Shown here: positions 1,975 through 27,081 of the stretch, piece by piece
Position numbering within the stretch: position 1 is the first letter of the stretch
Layout: every line of letters begins with the position of its first letter
Assembly: GCF_000423365.1 (NCBI RefSeq)
Contig: NZ_AUHV01000005.1
Coordinates: forward strand, 186,001-250,000
Direction: 5' to 3'
DNA from: Maritalea myrionectae DSM 19524
Lineage (GTDB): Bacteria; Pseudomonadota; Alphaproteobacteria; Rhizobiales; Devosiaceae
DNA length: 64,000 nt
The notes under the pieces: model-generated
Databases searched by the model: none
The model's input: only the letters and a program-made list of their open reading frames with translations
Told to the model about the DNA's origin: nothing
Program-made: the position numbers and the translations under genes

Positions 1975-4280
1975 CAGCGCTGTCCCTTCAGCCTTTCCAC
2001 CGCCATCAAAATGCGCTCCGGCGTGGCCGGGGCATCTAGGCGCGGGCAGGTTTTATAGTCGGCAACGCTGGCCACCGCCATGGAGAGGGCTTCCAGCACC
2101 GAAATGGCAAGCATAAAGGGCGGTTCGCCCACCGCTTTTGACCGTTTGATGGTGCGCTTTTCATTTTTCGACCAGGTGACCAGCTTGGTGTTGAAGGTGC
2201 GGGGCCGGTCGGACGCCAGCGGGATTTTATAGGTGGAGGGCGCGTGGGTTTTCAGCTCGCCTTTATCGGAGAACCAAAGCTCTTCGGTGGTGAGCCACCC
2301 CATGCCCTGAATAAATCCACCTTCGACCTGGCCCATATCGATGCCTTCATTAATCGAGTTGCCCACATCATGGAGCAAATCCACACGGTCCACAAAATAT
2401 TCGCCGGTGAGCGTGTCGATCACGACTTCGGACACGGCGGCGCCATAGGCATAATAATAGAACGGCGTGCCGCGCCCGGTTTCCCGGTTCCAGTGAATCT
2501 CGGGGGTTTTGTAAAAGCCGGCGGCAGACAGATGCACGCGCTCCATATAGGCGGCGGCGATCAGCTCTTCGAATGGCACTTGCTTGCCTGCGCAGTCCAA
2601 ATGCTCGTAGCCGAACTTCACGTCCGCTTCTTCGATCTGAAACTTGTCGGCGGCGAAACGCACCAGCCGTGCTTTCAATTGCCGTGCCGCATCGGCGGCG
2701 GCCATGCCGTTTAAGTCCGTGCCGGATGACGCGGCGGTGGCAGAGGTGTTGGGCACTTTGTCGGTGCGGGTGGCGCTGACTTTGACGCGGGCCGGATCGA
2801 CCTGCAACTCGTCCGCCAGCACTTGTGCCACTTTGGAATATAGCCCCTGCCCCATTTCCGTGCCGCCATGATTGAGCAGAATGGAGCCATCCTTATAGAT
2901 ATGCACCAAAGCGCCCGCCTGATTGTACCAGGTGGCGGTGAAGGAAATGCCGAATTTAACCGGGGTGAGCGCAATGCCGCGCTTCAGGTTCTTGTGGGAT
3001 TTGTTGAAATCCAGCACCTTTTGGCGACGGGCCTGGTAGTCGGCGCTTTCTTCCAGCTCGTCCACCACTTTGGTGATGATGTTGTCATCAACAATCTGGT
3101 GATAAGGCGTGGTGTTGCCCGTGTTTGGGCCATAAAAATTGGCGCGGCGCACCTCAAGTGGGTCTTTGCCCAGCTGATAGGCGATCTCTTCGATCACCCG
3201 TTCACCACCGATCATGCCCTGCGGGCCACCAAAGCCGCGGAAAGCGGTGTTGGAGACAGTGTTGGTTTTGAGCGGGCGCGAGCGCAGCTCGACATTTTCG
3301 AAGAAATAGCAATTGTCCGCATGGAACAGCGCGCGGTCCGTTACCGGACCAGACAGATCAGCGGAGAAGCCGCAGCGGGCGGCAAAGTCAGCATCCAGCG
3401 CGTGGATTTTGCCGCTTTCATCAAAGCCCACCTCATAAGTGGCGAGGAAATCGTGGCGCTTGCCGGTCATTACCATATCATCGTCGCGGTCCGGACGAAT
3501 TTTCACCGCGCGCTTATATTTTTTCGCCGCGATGGCTGCGACGCAGGCGAACAAAGCACCCTGGGTTTCCTTACCACCAAAGCCGCCGCCCATGCGCCGC
3601 ACTTCCACATTCACCGCATGCTGATGGGTGCCCAAAGCGTGGGCCACCATATGCTGCACCTCAGACGGGTGCTGGGTGGAGGAGATGACTTTGACCGTAT
3701 CGTCTTCCCCCGGAATGGCCATGGCGATATGGCCCTCCAGATAGAAGTGATCCTGACCGCCAATTTCCATTTCGCCTTTAAGGCGCATTGGGGCCTTTTC
3801 CATCGCCGCTTTCACGTCACCATTTTTCAAAGTCAGTGACGGGGTCACAAATTTTCCGCCTGCTTTTTCAGCGGCGCGAATATCGATGAGGGCGGGTTTT
3901 TCTTGATAGCTGATCTTGGCTTTTTTCGCCGCACGACGCGCGGCATCGCGGTGGGTCGCGATCACGGCAAAGACGGGTTGGCCGAGGAATTGCACCTCTT
4001 TATCGGCGAAGATCGGATCATCATGCAGCGCCGTGGGGCTGACATCGTTCTCGCCCGGAATATCGGTGGCAGTGAGCACGCCGAGCACGTCCGGGTGCGC
4101 CAACACATCAGTGAAATCCACGCCTTCAATTGTGCCTGCCGCGATGGTGCTGAGGCCGATATAGGCGTGCAGCGTGCCCGCCGGTTCATTGATGTCATCA
4201 AGATAATCAGCAGCGCCTGCCACATGTTTGTGGGCGGATTCGTGCGGTTTTGGGCCGAGGGCAGATTGCTTTTGGCTCAT
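1974..4280 (-). CDS. xdhB: Xanthine dehydrogenase large (molybdopterin) subunit
   Basis: 768 residues, the usual length of bacterial XdhB. It carries the molybdenum centre where hypoxanthine and xanthine are hydroxylated to urate. Visible motifs: GGGFGGKE at 231-238, AFRGFGGPQGM around 345, HGGTEMGQGLY around 470, and AVGEPPF with the base-catalyst glutamate at residue 719. The start is an ATG sharing one base with the xdhA stop; the stop likewise shares one base with xdhC, so A, B and C form a tightly coupled unit. Several long reading frames on the opposite strand (up to 323 codons) are shadows of this gene. Confidence 0.97.
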   Translation of the reverse strand: MSQKQSALGPKPHESAHKHVAGAADYLDDINEPAGTLHAYIGLSTIAAGTIEGVDFTDVLAHPDVLGVLTATDIPGENDVSPTALHDDPIFADKEVQFLGQPVFAVIATHRDAARRAAKKAKISYQEKPALIDIRAAEKAGGKFVTPSLTLKNGDVKAAMEKAPMRLKGEMEIGGQDHFYLEGHIAMAIPGEDDTVKVISSTQHPSEVQHMVAHALGTHQHAVNVEVRRMGGGFGGKETQGALFACVAAIAAKKYKRAVKIRPDRDDDMVMTGKRHDFLATYEVGFDESGKIHALDADFAARCGFSADLSGPVTDRALFHADNCYFFENVELRSRPLKTNTVSNTAFRGFGGPQGMIGGERVIEEIAYQLGKDPLEVRRANFYGPNTGNTTPYHQIVDDNIITKVVDELEESADYQARRQKVLDFNKSHKNLKRGIALTPVKFGISFTATWYNQAGALVHIYKDGSILLNHGGTEMGQGLYSKVAQVLADELQVDPARVKVSATRTDKVPNTSATAASSGTDLNGMAAADAARQLKARLVRFAADKFQIEEADVKFGYEHLDCAGKQVPFEELIAAAYMERVHLSAAGFYKTPEIHWNRETGRGTPFYYYAYGAAVSEVVIDTLTGEYFVDRVDLLHDVGNSINEGIDMGQVEGGFIQGMGWLTTEELWFSDKGELKTHAPSTYKIPLASDRPRTFNTKLVTWSKNEKRTIKRSKAVGEPPFMLAISVLEALSMAVASVADYKTCPRLDAPATPERILMAVERLKGQR

Positions 4281-24346: not shown

Positions 24347-24529
24347 ATGAATAAACTGATTGGCATGTTGTGGATTATTTCTGGCTCTGCAATCGCAGGG
24401 GCGCTGGTGATCGCTGTTCTGGTCACACAAATGGTGCCCAATATGGGGCTCGGCATCGCCGCTGCTGCCATTTTGGGATATGTGCTGGCCATCCCGTTTT
24501 CCTATTACTTATCTAAGAAAATCAAATAG
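24347..24529 (+). CDS. 60-residue membrane protein with two helices
   Basis: Two hydrophobic stretches (about residues 5-27 and 33-54) separated by a short turn with PNMGLG, and a basic C-terminal tail (SKKIK). The ATG has a strong GGGGGAAG ribosome site. The upstream FNR/FixK-like box suggests expression under low oxygen or nitrosative conditions. I do not recognise a named family; small hairpin membrane proteins often act as assembly factors or subunits of respiratory complexes, but nothing in this sequence shows that. Convergent with the large secreted protein. Confidence 0.78.
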   Translation: MNKLIGMLWIISGSAIAGALVIAVLVTQMVPNMGLGIAAAAILGYVLAIPFSYYLSKKIK

Positions 24530-24546: not shown

Positions 24547-26979
24547 TTATCGCGCGCGGCAAGATAGGCGGGTTGTTCCGCCTTCTTCCAACACCAACTC
24601 TTGGTTGGTGATTTTAGCGCGCACATTGCCCCACACATTGGCAAAGCTTCCGTTCACACGGGCGCGGTGCAGGGCATATTGTCCATCCACCAAAGCGGTG
24701 CCCTTGTTTGGCTCGATCAGCGCCACCACTTCGCGGCCAGAGCATTTGTAGCTTTTGGCCACAACGTCAGGATCAGCTTCGCCCATGCTGGGATTAATGC
24801 GATATTCAATATCTGCATTGGTCGCAACCATTGTGGTCAAGCATCCGCCATTGGGTGAGCGCACTTCAAACCCCTGCCCCGCATTGCGCGTAAGCTGCAA
24901 TCGAGCATTTGGGGGCACATCGCGCACATATTGGCGCTGGCCATTGCCCGCAATCTCATAGACTTCGACGGGCCGTCCGCGATCATTTTTGAACCCGATT
25001 GAAACCGCACGATTGCCCATCGGCTGGCTGCTGGCAGACAGGCCGCACATATAATTTGGGTCGGCCCGATAATTGTTGAGGGCCTGACGTGCCGCTGCGC
25101 TTTGGGTGGTGATATTGATGTTCACGTTTGAATCGGACTGCTGATTGATCAGATCGAAAATATTGATGATCGTATCAACAGCTTCATTGCCGGTTGTGGG
25201 GCGATCAGGGTCTACGCCGAAATCGCTGTCCCCACCATCGCCAATATCTGGTTGGGAGGGTGGGCGACACCCATTGAGGAACCGACGGATCGCTGCGCCA
25301 CTGCCTTTGAGCGAATAGGTGGCCGTTTGCTCATCATTGATTGACCACCGCACAATATTGCCGAGCGCGAGTGCCCGCCACATGGGATCTCGCGTGTCGA
25401 TTGCGGCGACTGGCAGCGCCCCCCAATCATATCCCTCAACCGTGCGCGTGGTGGCCCGCACGCGACCATTATCATCGCCAACGCGCCATTGCACATTGAC
25501 GTTGCGACCGCTGGTCAAGCCGCGCGGAGCGGAGGCAAACATAATGCGCACCACGTCTTCTTGTGGAGTGCAGCGCGCCTCTAGTCCGATACGATCCGTT
25601 GTCACGTCGCCAAAGACCAAGCGCAAATCACCATCGCGACGCGACGGCGGTGTGCTCCATTTCAAGCTGGAATCGTCGGTCACATCGCCATAAACTGAAG
25701 GCCCGTTAAAGCGGGTGTTGCAAGCCTGCAAAAACTCACGCACTGGCCCGGCGCTGCCATTCAAGGATAGCGTTAGCCGATGGTTGTCGTTGGCAATTCC
25801 AGTGAAATTGGCGCCGGAAATCAACCCTTTCCACAAGCGGTCATCTGTCGACTTAGAAAAGCTCGGTGCGGGGCCGGACGCCAAGGGTGACTGGCCACGA
25901 TCGCCGTTGACCACACCATTATAGCGACCCGTTGTCCAATTGATCCGCGTGCGCCGCGGCAAATTGGCCCGCGCGGGAAACCCATCAAGATAAATGGTGG
26001 CGCGGCGTGAGCCTGGTTCGCATACTGCGCTGAACCCCGTGCGATTAAAGCTGCGCGCTTTGAATTCGAGCGAGGCAATATCTTCCTCTGATTTTGGGGC
26101 GTTAAAGCGCCAAGTGTAACCAGCGCGTAGATTTGTATCCGAGGCATATTGCGGTTTCGGCGTGATGGTCACATCAAAGTTTGAGCCACAAAGATCCAAT
26201 TGGCCTTGTCCTGTAGCGCCAGATGCAAACTCCACTTCCAGATTGCCGGTGCAATTGATGCCTGAATTGTCGGCAAAAACTCGAGTCCTCGCATCGTTGC
26301 CGATATGGCGAATGATGTTCAGCTCTTCGCCATTCAGTTTGATGCCAATTATTTTATCGTCGCCGCCAGAGCGTACGGTGAGAATTTCATAATAGCGTGT
26401 CGGTTCGACATCCAAAATCACTTCGTTACCGAAAGAGCAAAGGTCAACGGTGCGCTCGAAATCGTCCGCACCGGACAAGGCTGCCGACAATTCGCCCACA
26501 CATTTGAACCCAGACGGCCCGCGACGAATATCAAATTCGACGCGGTTTGAATTCGGAAATGCGGTAAATGGCTGTGGCTCTCCATCAAAACTCAGGGCGA
26601 GAATGCGGACATTATCTTGTGATGGGACGATCGTAATCGTGCGCACCGACGGGCCAGCGCCAGTGTCGCCAAAGTTGAGTGCCACTTGCCATTCTGCATC
26701 ACACAAATTGAGCTGCTTGCGCAAAAAGCGGCCATTTTCAGCGATGAGCGAAAGGGTTGCATAGCATTGTGCACCGTCCTCCAGCTCAATAAAGGCATAT
26801 TGATCGGCCTGTGCAACAATCTCAACCCGCTGGCCATTGATAAAGGCTGATTGCAGTTCGACTGATGCTGGGTCTTTTTCGATGGTGAGAATGCGCGCTG
26901 CTGCCGCACCTTGCACCAACAACAGAATGGAAAATATCACAACGCCAATTTGAGCGCTGATGGAAGTGAGCCTATGCAT
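24547..26979 (-). CDS. Large secreted multidomain protein, C-terminal MliC-like and VHL-beta-like domains
   Basis: 810 residues, uncharacterised. A signal peptide or anchor covers about 1-28 (cleavage after GAAAA likely). All 14 cysteines fall into seven neat pairs. Three N-terminal modules share C-x20-C (72/93, 160/181, 243/264). Two larger repeats span 320-420 and 470-571, each ending in a GS-x5-R-x-FL-x2-C pattern. After a linker rich in D and G comes a segment (about 655-725) resembling a VHL beta domain: VSIGFKNDRGRPVEVYEIAGNG, then a PPNARL turn. The C-terminus (743-810, C746/C807) resembles MliC/PliC lysozyme inhibitors. Function unknown; a cell-envelope or host-defence role is inference. 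Confidence 0.8.
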   Translation of the reverse strand: MHRLTSISAQIGVVIFSILLLVQGAAAARILTIEKDPASVELQSAFINGQRVEIVAQADQYAFIELEDGAQCYATLSLIAENGRFLRKQLNLCDAEWQVALNFGDTGAGPSVRTITIVPSQDNVRILALSFDGEPQPFTAFPNSNRVEFDIRRGPSGFKCVGELSAALSGADDFERTVDLCSFGNEVILDVEPTRYYEILTVRSGGDDKIIGIKLNGEELNIIRHIGNDARTRVFADNSGINCTGNLEVEFASGATGQGQLDLCGSNFDVTITPKPQYASDTNLRAGYTWRFNAPKSEEDIASLEFKARSFNRTGFSAVCEPGSRRATIYLDGFPARANLPRRTRINWTTGRYNGVVNGDRGQSPLASGPAPSFSKSTDDRLWKGLISGANFTGIANDNHRLTLSLNGSAGPVREFLQACNTRFNGPSVYGDVTDDSSLKWSTPPSRRDGDLRLVFGDVTTDRIGLEARCTPQEDVVRIMFASAPRGLTSGRNVNVQWRVGDDNGRVRATTRTVEGYDWGALPVAAIDTRDPMWRALALGNIVRWSINDEQTATYSLKGSGAAIRRFLNGCRPPSQPDIGDGGDSDFGVDPDRPTTGNEAVDTIINIFDLINQQSDSNVNINITTQSAAARQALNNYRADPNYMCGLSASSQPMGNRAVSIGFKNDRGRPVEVYEIAGNGQRQYVRDVPPNARLQLTRNAGQGFEVRSPNGGCLTTMVATNADIEYRINPSMGEADPDVVAKSYKCSGREVVALIEPNKGTALVDGQYALHRARVNGSFANVWGNVRAKITNQELVLEEGGTTRLSCRAR

Positions 26980-27054: not shown

Positions 27055-27081
27055 GGGGCGGAAGCTTAGCGCCTCCGCCCC
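27055..27081 (-). terminator. GC-rich hairpin downstream of hutU
   Basis: GGGGCGGA (27055-27062) and TCCGCCCC (27074-27081) form a perfect 8-bp stem just after the hutU stop (leftward reading). There is no T-run, so it is a weak or factor-dependent terminator at best. Confidence 0.5.

Follow-up and report, generated by a model that had tools for sequence, protein, structure and literature searches.

The window, i.e. the whole 64,000-nucleotide stretch of Maritalea myrionectae DSM 19524 DNA that was analysed, encodes an exported protein that sequence comparisons resolve into seven modules (Table 1). We propose, with a probability of about 0.55, that it is exported by Sec and acts in the cell envelope as a non-enzymatic, disulfide-stapled multi-domain binding protein, serving as an adaptor or scaffold. 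Three possibly Ig-like and two IalB/MotY-type repeats would form a rigid arm, and a flexible linker would present two ligand-binding ends, a VHL-beta domain whose pocket has been rebuilt and a diverged MliC domain. Such an adaptor or scaffold would grip proteins or glycans of the envelope, in the periplasm or at the outer surface. We infer the disulfides, the periplasmic or surface location and ligand binding rather than catalysis from the features described below.

Export, module order and cysteine pattern

The coordinates given in the initial annotation were right; the gene is encoded by the minus strand. Its product starts with a classical signal peptide, read from the sequence as a hydrophobic stretch followed by AAA before R29 and devoid of a lipobox Cys. 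No second hydrophobic segment is present in the 810-residue chain, nor did we see a surface anchor, a sorting signal or an outer-membrane translocation signal in it. The protein had been described as an exported, extracellular chain; the signal peptide and the lack of a second hydrophobic segment agree with export, and an extracellular and a periplasmic location are indistinguishable from the sequence.

The gene is single-copy in its own Maritalea genome, as determined by a protein search and a VHL-profile search. The protein matched no plasmid or phage record, and a phage or plasmid origin of the gene was rejected on that basis. Our sample contained full-length homologues in five other Maritalea genomes and in two further genera of this family. 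Identities to the M. myrionectae protein are 84% for M. mobilis and M. mediterranea, 45-46% for M. porphyrae and an uncultured Maritalea, and 32-34% for Cucumibacter marinus and an alphaproteobacterial MAG. A dN/dS of 0.05-0.07 relative to the two nearest Maritalea species, a rough ratio given the high dS, indicates that the open reading frame is under strong purifying selection.

Table 1. Features of the gene, its product and the upstream intergenic region (positions in the window)
Feature	Positions	Strand	Basis
Whole ORF, exported seven-module protein, 810 aa	24547..26979	-	Open frame, seven full-length homologues, dN/dS
Signal peptide, residues 1-28	26896..26979	-	Sequence reading; sole hydrophobic segment of the chain
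N1 module, residues 29-108, Cys72-Cys93	26656..26895	-	hhalign to N2 and N3 with shuffled controls
N2 module, residues 112-192, Cys160-Cys181	26404..26646	-	hhalign with shuffled controls
N3 module, residues 198-276, Cys243-Cys264	26152..26388	-	hhalign; predicted Ig/FnIII-like beta sandwich
M1 module, residues 286-424, Cys320-Cys420	25708..26124	-	hhalign to M2; predicted IalB/MotY-N fold
M2 module, residues 434-575, Cys470-Cys571	25255..25680	-	hhalign; profile matches in relatives
Acidic/Gly-Pro-rich linker with helices, residues 576-631	25087..25254	-	Lowest pLDDT part of the full-length model
VHL-beta domain, residues 632-732, Cys645-Cys713	24784..25086	-	hhalign to VHL-positive relatives; pVHL superposition
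Diverged MliC-like domain, residues 736-810, Cys746-Cys807	24550..24774	-	hhalign to true MliC proteins
11-bp hairpin between the hutU stop and the ORF, no U-run	27055..27081	-	-25.6 kcal/mol, z = -5.0

Seven modules, some of them repeated, had been suspected from the sequence. We compared segment profiles of eight rows each by hhalign, with 60 column shuffles as controls. The N1, N2 and N3 profiles match end to end, with scores of 39, 55 and 69 (E 4e-7 to 3e-13), and M1 matches M2 with a score of 129 (E 4e-22). The best shuffled controls were 16-23 for the N comparisons and 21 for M1/M2, and the same analysis revealed no cross-match between N and M. The N-terminal modules are thus genuine repeats. 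The comparisons indicate an N-N-N-M-M-VHL-MliC chain, i.e. two repeat families and two different end domains. The N modules comprise ~80 residues, and the M modules ~140 residues with SLxGSAxxVRxFxxxC at their end. The linker between M2 and the VHL-beta domain differs in length between homologues.

All cysteines (n=14) form regular pairs at the positions reported initially. Exactly 20 residues separate the two cysteines of each N pair, as had been noted, and the spacing of about 100 residues ascribed to the next two pairs is 99 in M1 and 100 in M2. All 14 are aligned and invariant across the protein and its seven full-length homologues, down to 33% identity, and none of the seven contains an extra Cys. 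With 117/810 positions invariant among the eight sequences, the hypergeometric P for this invariance is 9e-13. Outside this protein, among the relatives, the 20-residue spacing occurs in 38/38 N-module matches, while that of the M modules is mostly 98-101 and that of the VHL modules mostly 68. The pattern is therefore real, beyond chance and under selection. As the cysteines are paired and invariant and the protein is exported, each module apparently contains one disulfide, which makes seven in the chain.

Relatives and predicted folds of the repeated modules

Searches of Pfam, NCBIfam and PHROGs with the protein gave no usable match, for the whole chain or otherwise, and phmmer against the PDB gave none. 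Likewise, in all proteins scanned, the N and M modules lacked a counterpart among the Pfam and NCBIfam models. The individual folds are known; we encountered neither the N and M families nor the combination of folds nor the long form in the Pfam, NCBIfam, PHROGs and literature that we searched, in agreement with the view that the protein was undescribed.

A profile search for this layout in other Hyphomicrobiales identified relatives of the modules in 53/397 genomes of the order, and M matches in three other genomes of the class, all weak. The relatives carry fewer and reshuffled modules. Many have the N-M-VHL-MliC order, and others are N-N-M-VHL-MliC (L028, L036), N-N-M-MliC-like (L009, L020, L024, L046), M-VHL (L010, L011, L038) or M alone (L029). 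Since most of the extracted relatives have fewer modules, the full-length seven-module form may be a lineage-specific elaboration. The M module is also found with DUF11, PG_binding_1 and a tail containing about 30 Cys (L048:1186-3996 and L049:2886-6191), and DUF3011 is a further domain that the modules adjoin (L042). A BlaR1-type Peptidase_M56 protein harbours a C-terminal VHL-like domain (L050:1303-4242), possibly an extracytoplasmic sensor input. N (Cys-20-Cys) and M (Cys-100-Cys) are two module types new to Pfam. Across Hyphomicrobiales, they occur in changing combinations with VHL-beta, MliC, peptidoglycan-binding and sensor-protease domains, and a single structure would therefore annotate many proteins.

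We modelled the full-length protein with AF2 from the eight full-length homologues only (mean pLDDT 78), and residues 198-424, corresponding to N3-M1, separately (pLDDT 88). The best structural matches of M1 are an LPHT-ring chain (8z5n_A, Z 10.1), MotY (2zf8, Z 9.2) and Bartonella IalB (3dtd, Z 9.1). They span 125-131 residues at 3.4 Å (125-129 for IalB and the MotY N-domain) and score well above the next match, one to a different region of the model. M1 is thus predicted to share the IalB/MotY-N fold. In contrast with this likeness in fold, the M modules have a different Cys pattern from IalB, are repeated in tandem and show no detectable sequence relation to it. They have no Pfam match to IalB (PF06776), and relative to the IalB proteins of the order, present in 61/61 genomes sampled, the hhalign probability was 1-2% with a score at the shuffled null; sequence homology to IalB was therefore rejected. 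The M profile also had no match among PDB sequences.

N3 is a beta sandwich in the model, with residues 52-132 of 3bws as its best match (Z 6.3) and many Ig/FnIII chains at Z 4.5-6, which faintly suggests that the N modules are Ig-like. Foldseek with the whole chain yielded multi-domain receptors and glycan-binding proteins, with top TM-scores of about 0.1-0.2. A likeness to immune/cytokine receptors was rejected in view of these very low scores, which correspond to generic beta-sandwich beads.

The VHL-beta and MliC-like end domains

The two end domains had been likened to a VHL beta domain and to an MliC/PliC lysozyme inhibitor, and both resemblances were borne out. The VHL segment profile matched that of the VHL-positive relatives by hhalign with an E-value of 3e-16 (score 88, null maximum 17.7). 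Independently of these profiles, superposition of the AF2 model on pVHL residues 62-156 with VIA-align covered 85 residues at 1.8 Å (Z 7.6), and the top 47 rows were all VHL. The model thus confirmed the predicted VHL-beta fold of this domain. The profile of the eight full-length homologues alone did not retrieve human VHL from the PDB sequences; hence, the sequence link needs bridging relatives, and a joint profile of these and the target lineage did find human VHL (E 5e-7). In the same way, PF01847 gave nothing over the Pfam cut-off in the protein and its full-length homologues, whereas many of the shorter relatives pass it. The human pVHL beta domain and that of M. myrionectae have the fold in common, but the latter is exported, contains one invariant Cys pair and has lost most pocket residues, and the elongin-binding helical part of pVHL was not seen in it.

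The hydroxyproline pocket of pVHL is formed by Trp88, Tyr98, His110, Ser111, His115 and Trp117 (PMC9528729). We aligned 20 non-redundant exported bacterial VHL domains from outside the target lineage with the eight target-lineage sequences. In the former, the pocket residues are W88 (19/20), Y98 (14/20), S/T111 (20/20), H115 (18/20) and W117 (20/20); together with G93 (20/20) and N78 (17/20), they are among the positions most like human VHL. In the target lineage, W88, Y98 and H115 occur in 0/8 sequences each, S/T111 in 1/8 (T) and W117 in 4/8, with E/Q/S/A at position 88, V/L at 98, R/A/T/G at 111, Q/L at 115 and F/W/Y at 117. By this alignment, the pocket is lost in the target lineage but kept in most other exported bacterial VHL domains.

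In other Alphaproteobacteria, proteins that combine an exported VHL domain with MVL have, like the protein studied here, a signal peptide-like start and a Cys-bearing VHL-beta domain, which in their case is annotated by Pfam. They differ in their size of ~160-200 residues, in keeping the pocket and in having mannan-binding MVL in place of the N, M and MliC modules. In four of them, the VHL-beta domain with an intact pocket and MVL are both over the Pfam cut-off (L064:1252-1851, L065:1411-1899, L066:1276-1887, L070:1408-1899). Two adjacent genes of one genome each code for a VHL-beta domain over the Pfam cut-off (L051:2067-2444 and 2474-3907). Cyanobacterial plasmids of Nostoc sp. C057 (L106:2375-2737) and Calothrix sp. 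NIES-4101 (L107:2444-2785) encode small VHL-beta proteins called 'hypothetical', whose sequences show the W/Y/T/H/W pocket. A bacterial exported VHL-beta protein, that of Litorilituus sediminis, has been described from sequence; it is single-domain, and the part of the report available to us focuses on tumour suppression and mentions no module family, pocket conservation or MliC domain (PMC9002001).

VHL-beta thus recurs among exported bacterial proteins, and most of these domains have the pocket by which hydroxyproline is read in animals. The retention of this pocket in the related exported domains, as judged by alignment, would be the newest lead of this work; if the pocket works, it would become directly testable how the VHL reader arose in evolution. 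Speculatively, the exported bacterial VHL-beta domains might be extracytoplasmic readers of hydroxyproline/proline peptides or of glycoproteins that share the human pocket, the Maritalea branch having been rebuilt for another ligand in a seven-module scaffold, although we regard this scenario as doubtful.

The C-terminal domain is a diverged homologue of MliC. As the MliC-type profile had only a weak best match in the PDB (E 1.2 to 2f09), we turned to an hhalign comparison with the true MliC proteins that PF09864 had retrieved from the order. The domain of M. myrionectae reached 82% probability (E 1e-5) and a score of 31.5, compared with a maximum of 17.1 in 100 shuffles, and the MliC-like ends of the relatives reached 98.5%. 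PF09864 had no match over the Pfam cut-off in the protein and its full-length homologues, while relatives G115 (34.8 bits) and G076 (30 bits) passed the 22-bit threshold. Homology to the MliC/PliC profile extends over the whole domain, including the YxC start, the closing Cys and the pairing of cysteines from first to last strand. However, MliC/PliC proteins are otherwise small lipoproteins or periplasmic proteins, unlike this one domain among seven. MliC fills the active site of lysozyme with its loop 4 and has two conserved motifs, SxSGAxY and YxxxTKG (PMC5507604). Both motifs are absent in 8/8 full-length homologues, whereas SxSGxxY is present in almost every MliC protein retrieved from the order. 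Neisseria ACP has the MliC fold without those motifs and still inhibits lysozyme (PMC5507604); hence, the loss of SxSGxxY would lower the chance of lysozyme inhibition rather than abolish it.

Proposed role, alternatives and genomic neighbourhood

The initial annotation suggested a scaffold or an inhibitor with several binding surfaces. The scaffold fits the anatomy of the chain, and our reading of it as an envelope adaptor or scaffold retains that part; classical lysozyme inhibition is not favoured, given the absence of SxSGxxY. The folds predicted for the modules, tentatively so for N, are all typical of structural or binding domains that lack catalysis, and in relatives the modules adjoin envelope or binding domains. 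Relatives of the two end domains bind peptides in the case of VHL and an enzyme in the case of MliC. As both canonical binding motifs are replaced, hydroxyproline is probably not the ligand and lysozyme is a less likely one. On the other hand, the narrow distribution of the full-length form would be no less compatible with a niche trait than with a housekeeping scaffold, and the lack of a conserved neighbourhood, with hut neighbours in Maritalea only, also argues against the binding role.

A surface adhesin that binds glycoproteins or the matrix of algae, animals or other bacteria through an Ig-like and IalB-like stalk is the alternative that we take most seriously, although we consider it unlikely. 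The beads-on-a-string Ig-like domains, the generic receptor and glycan-binding matches of Foldseek and the Bartonella IalB fold of M1 are consistent with it, and the fusion of exported VHL domains to mannan-binding MVL elsewhere would suit an adhesin and an adaptor alike. The low TM-scores, the lack of a sequence relation between M modules and IalB, and the absence of recognizable anchoring, sorting or outer-membrane translocation signals argue against it. We find it less probable still that the protein is a multi-domain lysozyme inhibitor whose MliC-like end blocks the active site of the c-type lysozyme of animals or predators, the rest being a spacer. The homology to MliC speaks for such a role, as do the precedent of Neisseria ACP (PMC5507604) and the SGxxY-type loops kept by G115 and G076, which have the same module types; however, the full-length homologues all lack SxSGxxY, and inhibition does not necessitate a 700-residue spacer. 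That the VHL-beta domain is a functional reader of (hydroxy)proline peptides is very improbable: its fold and the pocket kept in other exported bacterial VHL domains would allow it, but the pocket is gone in the target lineage, and no gene of 2OG-FeII_Oxy_3, the one family looked for, was found in its own genome.

Co-transcription with hutIHGU and a role in histidine utilisation would fit the position of the gene in the examined loci of Maritalea, where it comes immediately after hutU and shares its strand. We deem this the least probable of the alternatives, and rejected it, because the 110-bp gap between hutU and the ORF contains a strong hairpin (Table 1) and the Cucumibacter and MAG homologues are in unrelated loci devoid of the hutU linkage; moreover, the domains of the protein are unrelated to the pathway. 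No partner gene is conserved across the Maritalea, Cucumibacter and MAG loci. The statement that the gene has no operon partner is thus supported by the hairpin and by the lack of linkage outside Maritalea, though it must be qualified within that genus by the adjoining same-strand hutU.

Finally, a 60-residue hydrophobic protein is encoded at 24347-24529 (+) of the window, convergently with the gene studied here. The loci of M. porphyrae, Cucumibacter and the MAG contain no clear copy of it, and copies 97 and 80% identical to it are found at the same place in M. mobilis (L012) and M. mediterranea (L013), respectively.
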